From a virus: 25,949 bases of DNA. Each line of letters opens with the position of its first letter. The first letter of the stretch is position 1. Positions 14,372 to 25,949 of this stretch are shown in pieces. A program made the position numbers and the translations under genes. The stretch lies in the IMG/VR virus record IMGVR_UViG_3300005882_000019, positions 1 through 25,949 of that record. One strand, given 5' to 3'. The notes under the pieces are model-generated. The model ran no database searches. It saw nothing but the letters and a program-made list of their open reading frames with translations, and had not been told where the DNA came from.

Positions 14372-15250
14372 ATGCCAGAGGCAATGAATCAGGAGAATCA
14401 AACACTAGAGACAACACAGACTCAACAACCAATACAACAAACACAAGAGTTAGATTGGACAATGCCAGACGAGCAAGTGAATCATATGGTAGAGGAAGCA
14501 CACAAACTAGAAGAACAAATAAAAAATCCAAACGCAACACAAGCACAAGAAACAACAGAAACTGAACAGCTATTAGCTGGGAAATATAAAACTCCTGAAG
14601 AGCTTGAAAAAGGTGTTATTAACTTACTGCAAAAAATGACTGGTACCGACAACCTGGAAGATCTGTATAAAGCTCTAGAGAGCCAGTTAGGGGCTCAGCA
14701 AGAATCAACAGAACAAGAAAGCGATGTTTCCGAACAAGCTCAAGATGCGATTGAATCGTACGAAGAGATTATTTCGCAGTATGTTCAAGACTATCTTAAC
14801 ACAGAAGAAGTACCTAAAGAGCTGTTAGAAAAAACAGGCTTACCTGCGGACGTAGCTAAGTTGGCTTTAGAGGCAAAAGCTGGGGAATATAGAGAATACG
14901 CAGAGCAATTAGTATCTACAGTAGGCGGGTTTGAGCAATTTGAACAATTGATGATGTGGGCTGAAAACAACTTGCCTTACGAAGTTCAAGCATCTATTGC
15001 AGCAGCTATACAGACAGGAGATATCCACTTAGCATCATTAGTCTTAGAAGCTTTGCAAAACAGGGCTGCTCAAGCCAATCCACAACTATACGAAGGAGAA
15101 GCAGCTGTTTCTGGAGGCGGTGATATCTATCACAGTATTGAAGATGTGCTAAACGATATTAACGACCCAAGATACGGTACAGATCCTAGGTATACTAAAG
15201 AAGTTGAAGCTAAAATTATCAGGTCTGGTATTGATATCTCAGAATTATAG
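14372..15250 (+). CDS. Capsid assembly scaffolding protein (T7 gp9-like)
   Basis: Directs procapsid assembly between portal and capsid, then leaves the head. The protein (292 aa, T7 307) is very acidic, with a Gln/Thr/Glu-rich, low-complexity N-terminal half (for example QTLETTQTQQPIQQTQEL) and long helices later (EYAEQLVSTVGGFEQFEQLM). The family is recognised from composition, the YKTPEELEKGVINLL segment and position directly before the capsid gene. ATG 14372 lies behind AAAAGGAGGGCG. The conserved-looking end NDPRYGTDPRYTKEVEAKI is probably the capsid-binding region, by analogy with T7 scaffold C-termini. Confidence 0.9.
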   Translation: MPEAMNQENQTLETTQTQQPIQQTQELDWTMPDEQVNHMVEEAHKLEEQIKNPNATQAQETTETEQLLAGKYKTPEELEKGVINLLQKMTGTDNLEDLYKALESQLGAQQESTEQESDVSEQAQDAIESYEEIISQYVQDYLNTEEVPKELLEKTGLPADVAKLALEAKAGEYREYAEQLVSTVGGFEQFEQLMMWAENNLPYEVQASIAAAIQTGDIHLASLVLEALQNRAAQANPQLYEGEAAVSGGGDIYHSIEDVLNDINDPRYGTDPRYTKEVEAKIIRSGIDISEL

Positions 15251-15253
15251 TGG

Positions 15254-15264
15254 TCTATAAGGGG
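15254..15264 (+). promoter_or_regulatory. Candidate phage promoter-like string
   Basis: TCTATAAGGGG directly follows the scaffold stop codon and resembles the CTATAGGG initiation core of T7-type promoters and the TATAAG strings at 423 and 1076. It lies only 11 bases upstream of a strong terminator, which argues against use as the main capsid promoter. Low confidence. Confidence 0.2.
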
Positions 15265-15274
15265 AAAGCTTTTA

Positions 15275-15313
15275 GGGGCTACTACCTATTTAGGTGGTGG
15301 CCCCTTTTATTTT
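15275..15313 (+). terminator. Strong intrinsic terminator between scaffold and capsid
   Basis: GGGGCTACTACCT (15275-15287) pairs with AGGTGGTGGCCCC (15292-15304) over 13 bp with two G-U wobbles around the 4-base loop ATTT, followed by TTTTATTTT (15305-15313). This is a textbook rho-independent terminator. It would stop most transcripts arriving from the scaffold gene, so the capsid gene likely depends on read-through or on its own promoter downstream of this point. Confidence 0.88.
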
Positions 15314-15408
15314 GCTGTTCTACCGAACGTAAGTAGTGGCCCTCTTGGCCACCCTCTGCGGAGGCAAAGCCAAGGGGACACCCACGAAAGCAAGTAGGTA
15401 TGAGCAGC
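15314..15408 (+). ncRNA. Compact structured RNA leader of the capsid gene, unknown class
   Basis: The 5' end GCTGTTCTACC (15314-15324) pairs with GGTATGAGCAGC (15397-15408) over 11 bp with one bulge and one wobble, closing a domain of about 95 bases. Inside are GTGGCC/GGCCAC (15336-15341 with 15347-15352, 5-base loop), CCTC/GAGG (15353-15356 with 15361-15364, loop TGCG) and GGG/CCC (around 15375-15383). An alternative long pairing CTTGGC (15344-15349) with GCCAAG (15369-15374) competes with the first inner hairpin. It is far more GC-rich than its surroundings and non-coding, and begins right after the terminator U-tract. I could not match it to tRNA, cobalamin, c-di-GMP, T-box or hammerhead signatures. 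It may be a regulatory leader, a processing site or a free small RNA. Confidence 0.5.
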
Positions 15409-15453
15409 ACGTCTCCCCAACTGTTCAATAAAATAAATAAGGAGGGATAATAT

Positions 15454-16572
15454 ATGAGCACTAATGTCTATACAAATCACTTTAACAGATTAGGTACTTA
15501 TACTGGTTTAGGAACTTATGGTGCTGAACTTCCTGATGGCGCTAACGTTGAATTGTTTAAAACTCTTTATGGCCCTGAAGTATTAGCTAACTTCAAGAAA
15601 AATCTTGTTTTTGGTAGAGCTACTAAAGTAAAAGCGATTACACAAGGAAAAGGGTACGAATTCAACCTTTTAGCAGAAGTAAGTGCACACTACTTCAATC
15701 CTGGTGATGAACTTACTGGTCAACAGGTAGCAAGAGGAAGAAGACAAATCTTCCTTGACGGAATGCTTACATCTGATATCATAATTGCAGACATTGATGA
15801 ACTTTTGAACCACACAGACGAAAGACAAAGATATGCAGAATACATGGGCTACGTTATGTCCGTCAAGTACGATTCAGCAATTGCTGCAGAAATTATCAGA
15901 GGATCTCTTGTTAAGCCTGTTTCTGGTATAGAAGCAGATATAGCTAAAGGCGGTACCATTATTGAAAATGATATTTCAGGAGCTACCGACCAAGCCTTAG
16001 CTCTCTTAGAAGCTATCCTTGATTTAGGTAAAGAACTCGACAAAAAGAACGTTCCTAAAACAGGTAGAGTCTTAGTACTCAAACCAGATTACTATTGGAT
16101 GTTACTCAAGAACATTGATTTAATCAATTCATTCCACCCAGGTATCGGTTCTATAGCATCTGGAGACGTCATGAAGATTGCAGGATTCTCTATTCTTGAA
16201 TCCACTAACTTCCCAACAACTGCGTCCGACGTAGAATTCCATGAAATTCCTTCTGAATACCAAGCAGACGGTGCTACCGCATCATCATACAACAACATTA
16301 ACACCAATGCGGTTATAGGTAGCAGTACTCTTGTTTACAACAAATTCAACAAAGAAACTGATGTGGCAAAAGTTGCTGGTGTTGCTTACGTACCAAATGC
16401 AATAGTAACACTCAAGAGAAAAGGTATGTCTATCGAAACACAAAGACAGCTCTCTAAACTTGGTACATTAATTGTTGCTACAATGCTTGTTGGCCATGGT
16501 TGGCTCAATCCTGCAGCATGTGCAATCATTGTAGACAATAACCCAAGCTCATCCATTATTGTAACTGCTTGA
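15454..16572 (+). CDS. Major capsid protein (T7 gp10A-like)
   Basis: HK97-fold shell protein, 372 aa (T7 gp10A 345). Family features: an N-terminal NRLGTYTGLGTYGAELPD, GYEFNLLAEVSAHYFNPGDEL, the spine-helix region around DQALALLEAILDLGKELDKKNVPKTGRVLVLKPDYYWML, and the late VAGVAYVPNAIVTLKRKGMSIETQRQ. ATG 15454 is behind AAGGAGGGATAATAT. The gene is flanked by strong terminators and preceded by a structured leader. Its codons end in C more often than those of neighbours (aac, ttc, gac), as expected for the most highly expressed phage gene. No slippery site for a gp10B-type frameshift is seen near its end. Confidence 0.95.
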   Translation: MSTNVYTNHFNRLGTYTGLGTYGAELPDGANVELFKTLYGPEVLANFKKNLVFGRATKVKAITQGKGYEFNLLAEVSAHYFNPGDELTGQQVARGRRQIFLDGMLTSDIIIADIDELLNHTDERQRYAEYMGYVMSVKYDSAIAAEIIRGSLVKPVSGIEADIAKGGTIIENDISGATDQALALLEAILDLGKELDKKNVPKTGRVLVLKPDYYWMLLKNIDLINSFHPGIGSIASGDVMKIAGFSILESTNFPTTASDVEFHEIPSEYQADGATASSYNNINTNAVIGSSTLVYNKFNKETDVAKVAGVAYVPNAIVTLKRKGMSIETQRQLSKLGTLIVATMLVGHGWLNPAACAIIVDNNPSSSIIVTA

Positions 16573-23548: not shown

Positions 23549-25949
23549 TGGCTTCTATGATAGATGTGTACAACTACGCGCAAACTTTAGCTGATGCGTT
23601 AGCCTCATCTAAACAGACATTTGAACAGATTACTGGTGTTGTTGAAGGTGATGCAACGTTTGATGCTACAGAATTAGCAAACTATTTGAACTCTTTGTAT
23701 TCTAGAACTTCAGGCGAACGTAAGCAATATTTTGAACGTTACTTAGATTTAATCACCAACAACCCTGAAATTTTAGCATCTATATTCTTAAATGAATCTG
23801 ATTGGGGGCTTTCGTCCCCCAATATTGGTCAAATACAGCCTAGTGTTATCAAAACACTTGTAGACTACCCACTATACTCTGAATTCTTAGCAGATGTAAT
23901 GGGAGACTTACCAATAACTCAAAAATTAACGTTAAAAGAAGCTATACAAAAATTAAACAACGCAAGATATAAAGGTGACTTTGAAACATATACAAGTCTT
24001 AAAAAACAAATAGTCCAAGTCTTATCTAAAGAAATACAACAACCAACAATTAAAGACCCTACTAAATGGGCTGCGTTGACTCTTGGAGCTTTGTTTTACA
24101 AAGCGTACGACGAGACATCACTTTTGAAAATGGATAAGGTTTATCAAGGAGACCCCGAAAACCGTGATAAATACTTAAGCCTGTTATTGACCGATATATG
24201 GCATGATGCGAGTGAACAAGAATACAAACAGTTCAAACAAGCTATTGAATCACAACAAACACTTCCTGAAGACTCTGTAAAAGAATTTGTATGGTCAAAA
24301 CTTAACTCGCAGGCTGCTGGAACAGTTAATAGAGCACCTGCTTATTTAGCACTACTTAAAGTACCTTCAGATTCCTTTTTCCAAACATACTTAACTTCCC
24401 CAGCATTCAAACAAGTATATGAATCGCACGACAATTTCAAAACTTTAATAAACAACCTATCCCCCATAGAAACAGACACAGGAGAACTCTTAGATGTAAC
24501 TAAAACAGTAACAACTCCACCACTAGACGTTAGTAACAAACAACAAAAAACAGAAGACCTTATTGTCACTGATTTATCCGATATAACTCCAGTGTTTAAC
24601 CAACCACCTGAATTTAGTTTTGCGGCACCAAAGAATCAAAACGTACAAGTTGACCAGACGCTTTATACGTTTACCCCTGAAGCAGGGAATACAACAACTG
24701 ATACAATGAATGTTCCAGCAGAAGGGCTAACTATTGGAGGGACGTCACCACAACCCGAACCAGAACCAGAGTCTGAACCAGAGCCCGCACCTAAGCCGCC
24801 AACTCCCGATGTACGAACTAGCGCATCTCAACCTATGTGGGAGAAGCGCCCTGGTGCTGATGCTTTTAATAAAGGATTCATGGAAGGTCTTACTGGTGGT
24901 TGGAAAACTATTGATGAAGTTAACGTTACACCAGACACACAAGATGCGCACGCCGTTGGCTCAACTATTGGTGCAACAATACGAAATTTAGGTTTAGCTT
25001 TCTTGGGCAGTGGCATACTTGGTACCATATTATCAGCCCCAGCTATTTCAGCGGCCTTAGGTAAACTACCAGCTGCATTAGAGTGGGCTGTTACAGGAGC
25101 AGCGCAAGGAACGACTTACATCATATTAAACAATTTGACTGCAGCAGACCCATACGATATTCCATTAAAAGATGTTCCAGCTACTTTAATAGACTTCGGT
25201 AGTGGTGAAGTATTTAGAGGGGTTGTCTCTAATTTACTTAAAAGTTTTAGCCCAATCGCACGACAGGTGCTATCTTCGTTAAGTGACCACTTGGGTGGAA
25301 CCTTAGCTGGTGCGGCATGGCAAGGAATGACTGAACAAGACTGGGATGTATTCTATAAAAACATAGGACCTGCAGCACTAGCGGGGTTTGTTGTTGAAAA
25401 CGTACTTTGGGGAGTTAAATACAATTCCCAATTTAAAGAAACATTAAACGCTTTAGGAGCTGATGTTAAACAGCTTGAGACAGTTTATAACAAATATCTC
25501 GAAGACCCAAATCCAAAGAACTTACAACAGCTACAAACAGAAATTGATAATTTCTTAGTTAAATTTACCCTTACAGTAGGACACGGGGACCCTGCTGCAG
25601 CATCTAAAACATTTAAGGCATTAGTTTCTTCTAACGGCGTTGAAATTTTAGACAAAGTTTATAAAAATTCAAATGTAGATATTCCAAAAGACGTACTTGA
25701 ATATTTAGTTAATACTCCTCCAGATAAGTTTGATAGTGCTGAGTTTCTCAAGAAACTTAACGCATCACTGAGTAAGGATAAACCACAAACTCCAGAAGAA
25801 AAACTTACAGGTCAAACTGGTATAGAACAAAAGGTCGAAGAAGCTAAAGTCGAAGAAGTCAAGCCTGAAGAAGCTAAGGTTGAAGAGGTTAAAGGTGAAG
25901 AAGTTAAACCTGAAGAAGCTAAGATTGAAGAAGCCAAAGCCGAAGAAGT
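23548..25949 (+). CDS. Large internal virion / ejection protein (T7 gp16-like), 3'-truncated by the window
   Basis: GTG 23548 (TAGTG overlap; ribosome binding site GGAGGTGAAGAA) opens a frame of 800 codons with no stop before the window ends. T7 gp16 is 1318 aa, so roughly a third is probably missing. Regions: residues 1-100 with ILASIFLNESDWG...NIGQIQ, which may be a divergent lytic transglycosylase motif with candidate catalytic E83; helices to about 370; a Pro/Glu linker (about 400-425, with EPEPESEPEPAPKPP); a hydrophobic Gly/Ala-rich section (about 470-535, ATIRNLGLAFLGSGILGTIL) that may insert in membrane; and from residue 762 a run of pentapeptide repeats of the form EEAKV/EEVKP. In T7 the N-terminal domain of gp16 hydrolyses peptidoglycan; here that is inference. 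Confidence 0.85.
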   Translation, partial: MASMIDVYNYAQTLADALASSKQTFEQITGVVEGDATFDATELANYLNSLYSRTSGERKQYFERYLDLITNNPEILASIFLNESDWGLSSPNIGQIQPSVIKTLVDYPLYSEFLADVMGDLPITQKLTLKEAIQKLNNARYKGDFETYTSLKKQIVQVLSKEIQQPTIKDPTKWAALTLGALFYKAYDETSLLKMDKVYQGDPENRDKYLSLLLTDIWHDASEQEYKQFKQAIESQQTLPEDSVKEFVWSKLNSQAAGTVNRAPAYLALLKVPSDSFFQTYLTSPAFKQVYESHDNFKTLINNLSPIETDTGELLDVTKTVTTPPLDVSNKQQKTEDLIVTDLSDITPVFNQPPEFSFAAPKNQNVQVDQTLYTFTPEAGNTTTDTMNVPAEGLTIGGTSPQPEPEPESEPEPAPKPPTPDVRTSASQPMWEKRPGADAFNKGFMEGLTGGWKTIDEVNVTPDTQDAHAVGSTIGATIRNLGLAFLGSGILGTILSAPAISAALGKLPAALEWAVTGAAQGTTYIILNNLTAADPYDIPLKDVPATLIDFGSGEVFRGVVSNLLKSFSPIARQVLSSLSDHLGGTLAGAAWQGMTEQDWDVFYKNIGPAALAGFVVENVLWGVKYNSQFKETLNALGADVKQLETVYNKYLEDPNPKNLQQLQTEIDNFLVKFTLTVGHGDPAAASKTFKALVSSNGVEILDKVYKNSNVDIPKDVLEYLVNTPPDKFDSAEFLKKLNASLSKDKPQTPEEKLTGQTGIEQKVEEAKVEEVKPEEAKVEEVKGEEVKPEEAKIEEAKAEE
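25831..25949 (+). repeat. Tandem 15-bp repeats encoding EEAKV/EEVKP pentapeptides
   Basis: In frame within the gp16-like gene, about eight copies of a 15-base unit (consensus GAAGAAGCTAAAGTC with variants) encode alternating EEAKV, EEVKP, EEVKG, EEAKI and EEAKA. The array continues past the right edge, so its full length is unknown. Copies differ at synonymous and conservative sites, which suggests an old array kept by selection for charge and helix pattern rather than a recent slippage event. Confidence 0.85.

Follow-up and report, generated by a model that had tools for sequence, protein, structure and literature searches.

In phage T7, the leader of capsid gene 10, with the phi10 promoter and a 5' stem-loop, is structured and sets high capsid expression, and in the RNA phages the coat-protein operator hairpins of the MS2 type tie a gene to its reader protein through conserved unpaired bases. 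The capsid protein is required in far greater amounts than the products of the neighbouring genes, for which the answer of T7 is a promoter of the gene's own. The polymerase of cyanophage Syn5 has no more than two promoters, one of which serves over 37 kb (PMC3950665). A survey of structured RNAs from 2010 lists phage motifs, with capsid unmentioned in its text (PMC2864571), and no published capsid-leader RNA in podoviruses was found in the open-access literature.

Context and fold of the capsid leader

The window, the whole stretch of 25,949 bases that was analysed, was a fragment of a T7-like virus with its gene content in T7 order (T7-type RNA polymerase, primase/helicase, DNA polymerase, ribonucleotide reductase, portal, scaffold, capsid, and tail tubular proteins). 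Among known phages the nearest capsid was only distant, that of Pseudomonas phage LUZ100 (30.7% identity). The scaffold ORF (14372-15250) was followed by a non-coding gap of 203 nt (15251-15453), which contained, from 5' to 3', a terminator-like hairpin with a U tract, a structured block, a ribosome site, and the ATG of the capsid gene. No repeated promoter-like word was found above chance in this leader. The features are listed below with reference to a related locus, L002 (capsid 69% identical), in which the block lay at the same place behind a terminator-like hairpin of its own, likewise in the corresponding position.

15274..15305, + strand, terminator-like hairpin of 14 pairs, then TTTTATTTT; divides the scaffold from the capsid leader
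15313..15324, + strand, P1, 5' strand; from the fold, with two compensatory changes against L002
15331..15335, + strand, AAGUA, 5' side of the P1/P2 internal loop; letters shared with L002
15336..15339, + strand, GUGG, P2, 5' strand; of its four pairs, two differ from L002 in both letters
15340, + strand, C, 5' bulge of the core; invariant among descriptor matches
15341..15349, + strand, P3, 5' strand; both letters differ from L002 in two of its pairs
15353..15364, + strand, P4 hairpin CCUC-UGCG-GAGG (strands 15353-15356 and 15361-15364, loop UGCG); from the fold, with U-A replaced by C-G in L002 as read by eye
15365..15368, + strand, CAAA, 3' side of the P3/P4 internal loop (CAC/CAAA); common to the window, L002, and a third locus, L014
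15369..15377, + strand, P3, 3' strand; the helix has 9 bp
15378..15381, + strand, ACAC, 3' bulge of the core (A-Y-A-A/C in the family); from descriptor and alignment comparisons
15382..15385, + strand, CCAC, P2, 3' strand; paired with 15336-15339
15386..15391, + strand, GAAAGC, unpaired 3' side of the P1/P2 internal loop; kept in L002
15397..15409, + strand, P1, 3' strand, with U15401 bulged; from the fold and the L002 comparison
15439..15446, + strand, Shine-Dalgarno-like AAGGAGGG of the capsid gene; read in the sequence
15454..16572, + strand, major capsid gene, 372 aa (PHROG 267, E 7.5e-53); the gene tied to the element

The block (15313-15409, 97 nt) ended 44 nt 5' of the capsid ATG and folded at -43.4 kcal/mol, compared with -29.1 +/- 3.5 for shuffles (z -4.06), and none of 200 shuffles was as good, which confirmed the structured non-coding RNA that a sequence-only reading of the window had placed before the capsid gene. 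The long-range closing stem of 11 bp proposed there was found with 11 of 11 pairs in the part at 15314-15324 (P1 has 12 bp and one bulge in all), and the proposed start after a terminator U-tract and end about 45 bases before the ATG agreed with the hairpin at 15274-15305 and the measured distance. The block formed a single stacked arm (P1, internal loop, P2, bulge, P3, loop, and P4) with pair probabilities of 0.72 to 1.0, and 0.54 for the outermost pair; the inner pairing thought to make two or three hairpins was therefore present as one arm, and not as separate hairpins. A competing pairing, also proposed, existed on paper (GUGGCC/GGCCAC, 15336-15341 with 15347-15352), but it was 4.2 kcal/mol worse with a probability of 0.002 and carried no weight as a switch. 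The free minimum of L002 was a competitor fold different from this alternative, and since the competitors differed between the two loci, a conserved switch was unsupported. In folds of the whole leader the ribosome site was partly paired, a pairing with no evidence of conservation. The AAGUA (15331-15335) and GAA(A) (15386-15389) sides of the internal loop presumably bear a likeness to the loop E or bulged-G motif.

The refuting conditions named in the sequence-only reading, a lack of covariation or a match to a known family, were both looked for and did not refute it; compensatory changes were found, and no Rfam 15 family matched. Whether gathering or relaxed thresholds were applied, the hits were at chance level (the best scored 17.8 bits where 50 were required), in agreement with the reported absence of a known RNA signature. 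In the alignment of the window with L002, 93.9% of cells were paired, compared with 36.7-46.9% when the alignment was slid, and six pairs showed compensatory changes, two each in P1, P2, and P3; those in P1, with the bulge allowed to shift, were A-U to U-A and C-G to G-C. Three pairs were broken in L002 (A.A in P1 and tandem G.A/A.G in P3), and the shuffle control on this pair gave 38/500, a weak result from two sequences only. Locus L001 was the same virus (99.99%), while L014/L015 (capsid 67%) shared the P4 and a long P3, had P2 as GCAG/CUGC and the bulges as C/ACAA, and differed in P1. A narrow window-type pattern matched only three lineages in IMG/VR, namely those of the window, L002, and L014. 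The block is almost certainly a real conserved RNA element.

Several further candidates were set aside. A wider window-type core pattern gave four IMG/VR matches beyond the window's virus and L002 that look like chance, two in coding sequence and two being one identical stretch in another phage context. Four matches of the narrow pattern in bacterial genomes were also taken, tentatively, for chance, and a portal search of bacterial genomes found no relative. A nucleotide search of known phages gave short weak matches, among which Vibrio phage VP93 was judged chance after reading.

Elsewhere in the window, the non-coding stretch at 390-507, before an ORF at 508-1059, folded better than shuffles (z -3.23) and contained GGACAC, and 15-bp tandem repeats at 25822-25949 (EEVKxEEAK-like coding repeats) extended past the contig end.

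Recurrence of the core in other autographiviruses

The same core recurred upstream of the capsid gene in distant relatives (capsid identity 22-33%), a recurrence invisible from the letters of the window alone. The core was summarised as P2, a 5' C opposite a 3' A-Y-A-A/C, and P3 (5'-GCC.../...GAYAMC-3'). A strict descriptor (P2 and P3 of 4 bp or more, P2 closing with G-C and P3 beginning with C-G, a single bulged C between them, and a 3' bulge of A-Y-A-A/C) matched 24 loci of the first set within 350 nt 5' of the capsid gene, several of these being near-identical contigs and so representing far fewer lineages. Replacing the bulged C with A, G, or T left 0, 0, and 1 matches, respectively, and eight altered 3' bulges left 0. 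Most of the 12 matches outside the 350-nt zone were capsid leaders again, with the capsid gene cut off or the locus in reverse orientation (L007). A second, prospective set comprised 80 loci picked by capsid protein only; once 2 bp were allowed for P2, matches were obtained in 40 of 75 leaders (three at odd positions), altered bulges gave 0-1 matches, and most of the unmatched leaders have visibly related forms. The core was found before the capsid gene in pelagiphages, in cyanophages Syn5 and P-SSP7, and in Roseobacter, Bordetella, and Pseudomonas LUZ100 phages, and the element was absent from T7, SP6, phiKMV, and KP34. Judged by these comparisons, the majority of the non-T7 autographiviruses examined have the core immediately 5' of the capsid gene.

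For covariation, 41 non-redundant elements with a short P3 were aligned by sequence and scored on a six-pair structure. In this set 86.9% of cells were paired, whereas shuffles reached 65.4% (0/500) and slid alignments no more than 50.6%, and the covariation score was 0.623 against 0.234 in shuffles (0/500). The elements had been picked by the C, P3, and the 3' bulge, with a bonus for the following pyrimidine, so that the P3 pairs were selected; the unselected pairs, the second of P2 and two of P1, were paired in 33, 34, and 24 of the 41, compared with 24.0, 24.1, and 15.1 expected from column make-up. The short-form consensus was P1, a UU:UY loop, P2 (2-3 bp), C:AYAM, and P3 with a tetraloop of UGAG, UGCG, or similar, and the P-SSP7 and Syn5 elements alone folded exactly so.

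A covariance model of the short-P3 form (R1, matches counted at E <=1) yielded 96 matches over roughly 1 Mb of loci, of which 95 were on the coding strand 5' of the capsid gene; the remaining one, weak and on the minus strand of L060, was spurious. With a capsid gene on the locus (92 of the 95), matches ended at a median of 55 nt before its start, the start estimate for one locus, L110, being shifted by an insertion in the capsid gene; in the other three the gene was cut off or unrecognised. Fifty-five of the 95 came from loci outside training, many of them closely related to training loci. On whole records, one significant match each was obtained in BB8, CRP-125, P-SCSP2, HTVC011P, and four metagenomic phages, and nothing significant in T7. 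E-values were 5e-9 for HTVC019P, 1.1e-5 for Syn5, and 0.059 for P-SSP7, the last being marginal with a matching fold, and the capsid leaders of phiKMV, SP6, and KP34 gave no match. A reading at the DNA level, as a promoter or repeat, was disfavoured by the one-strand orientation, the G-U pairs, and the confinement of covariation to helices.

The model missed most long-P3 forms, those of the window, L002, and L014 included; in the window no leader match was obtained, and the best hit, elsewhere, had an E of 1.6. The window's RNA was for this reason called a long-P3 variant, and it probably belongs to the wider capsid-leader element, a homology that we infer from position and core. It lies on the coding strand directly before the capsid ATG (15313-15409; ATG at 15454), with P2 closing in G-C, the bulged C, P3 beginning with C-G, and a 3' A-Y-A-A/C, while the shuffled window leader attained the full core in 3/4000. 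It is improbable that this RNA is instead a private structure of a small lineage (window, L002, and L014) that came to C/AYAM by convergence or chance. The failure of R1 on all three, the P1 and outer internal loop unlike those of the short form (the 2x2 UU:UY loop between P1 and P2 is replaced by AAGUA/GAAAGC), and the confinement of the window-type pattern to these lineages fit such a structure. Against it stand the rarity of the full core in shuffles, its retention in three diverged viruses at equal distance from the same gene while the helix letters vary, and long-P3 forms in other lineages too (L020, L025, L027, L029, and LUZ100). The UU:UY loop is missing from several contiguous forms as well.

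Other features were seen in the capsid leaders of relatives. In 18 capsid leaders, and hardly anywhere else in the loci examined, the element was preceded by a second conserved hairpin of the form [stem]-RC-ACUGN..NCGGU-[stem], which has a bulge of 2 nt on its 5' side and includes a U-G wobble. It lay 91-183 nt 5' of the capsid start (L098, the LUZ100 locus, 690-715; L101, L106, L107, L109, L111-L113, L115, L119, L121, L123, L141, L151, L164); it was absent from the window. Genes for tRNA preceded the element in the capsid leaders of L098 (Asn), L114 (Arg), L118 (Asn), L076 (Trp and Asn), and L090 (Asp). The insertion in L110 (986-1500, 515 bp) split the capsid gene between residues 55 and 56 and carried an ORF for recombination endonuclease VII (Pfam PF02945, E 6.8e-27); it is perhaps an intron, and no Rfam intron matched it.

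Proposed role in the capsid mRNA

Comparison fixed the fold (P1, P2, C opposite AYAM, and P3), the coding strand, and the place immediately before the capsid gene, with at most one significant match per genome. The fixed place and strand and the C/AYAM core within freely covarying helices point to a cis-acting RNA with a putative specific reader, and a cis-acting element of the capsid mRNA, within its 5' leader, is, as far as sequences can tell, the best explanation. Such an element probably governs the amount of capsid protein produced, by an action after transcription. Control of the capsid mRNA was likewise the best of the options offered by the sequence-only reading, whose packaging role and free small RNA were unsupported in this analysis, so that its interpretation as a whole was partly supported.

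Three readings of the action of the element were ranked, with processing or stability first, a protein operator second, and an RNase III site third. The first, that the element sets capsid output after transcription through processing or stability, is put forward tentatively, at somewhat less than an even chance. On a long late transcript, the element would mark or cap the capsid mRNA in its 5' part; an endonuclease would cleave upstream of the element, the fold would shield the newly made 5' region, and a protein or the ribosome may recognise the invariant C/AYAM core. Syn5 carries the element, and its promoter word was absent from 14-30 kb, whereas in the records of T7 and phiKMV, both without the element, a promoter is annotated immediately 5' of the capsid gene. 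The SP6 capsid leader, without the element as well, contains the SP6 promoter sequence. This contrast suggests that the element may replace the role of the promoter post-transcriptionally; where the capsid gene has a dedicated promoter directly in front of it, the element seems not to be needed. In LUZ100, the annotated 3' ends T14 and T15 were calibrated from 100-nt features on the intrinsic terminator T16. By this calibration, T14 (L098 433-532) appears to end at the base before tRNA-Asn and T15 (L098 634-733) within the second conserved hairpin, 5' of the element. Neither looks like a terminator; the two have the appearance of processing sites, as if the leader were cut before the element. 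As counter-points, the contrast between promoter and element was drawn from few phages, LUZ100 has the element plus a promoter about 550 nt upstream, R1 is without a match in the window, and an invariant core implies a specific reader, of which simple shielding of the 5' end would have no need.

The second reading is a translational operator, at which the capsid, scaffold, or another phage protein would bind C/AYAM and repress or activate capsid translation, as at the coat-protein operators of RNA phages; the single copy per genome, the constant gene, and the invariant bulge within freely changing helices are as for a protein site. The element lies, however, mostly 40-110 nt 5' of the start codon, the ribosome site is uncovered in the model fold, and no capsid of this fold is known to act as an RNA-binding repressor, so an operator is doubtful. 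A T7-type RNase III site, cut to separate the scaffold and capsid mRNAs, is unlikely: T7 sites are likewise arms with an asymmetric internal loop before genes, and the P1-P4 arm of the window is long enough, but the T7 loops are CUCA/UAUGA-like where the window has C/ACAC, the short-form helices of only a few bp each are short for RNase III, and the T7 record shows no such site before gene 10. A self-cleaving ribozyme, a riboswitch or attenuator, or a separate small RNA is very unlikely, since against the compact conserved fold and the terminator-like hairpin that immediately precedes it in the window and in L002 stand the lack of any Rfam ribozyme or riboswitch at threshold, the few invariant bases, the position of that hairpin before the fold and not after it, and the probability of 0.002 for the alternative pairing.

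Processing or stability thus remains the preferred reading, and the fuller proposal built around it falls just short of an even chance: an unrecognised RNA family in most autographiviruses outside the T7, SP6, phiKMV, and KP34 groups would replace the capsid promoter, and would raise or tune capsid synthesis from very long late mRNAs through the C/AYAM motif and a conserved factor.

Significance and comparison with known systems

The RNA family was judged to be new, and the kind of RNA to which it belongs, the cis-acting mRNA leader elements, to be known already. It offers a testable answer to the demand for capsid protein in phages with very few promoters, such as Syn5, and the phages that carry it infect SAR11, cyanobacteria, roseobacters, Bordetella, and Pseudomonas. 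Rfam gains from it a family so far absent, carried by viruses that are abundant in the ocean, and its position can serve to mark capsid genes in metagenomes.

The manA, wcaG, and PhotoRC-II motifs of Rfam (PMC2864571) are likewise structured 5' leader RNAs of phages found by comparison, but they belong to other genes, and none reached threshold in the capsid leaders tested. The T7 RNase III sites (R0.3, R1.1, R18.5, and others) share an intergenic arm with an asymmetric internal loop on a late or early transcript and differ in their conserved loop letters, their longer upper stem, and their number, many per genome against one for the element. The MS2-type operators share conserved unpaired bases in a hairpin tied to one gene; the motif differs, and the element lies in a dsDNA phage, clear of the start codon, with a putative reader. 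The T7 gene 10 leader is alike in being structured and lying close before the capsid gene, and differs in having its own promoter and a plain stem-loop without C/AYAM that R1 does not match.
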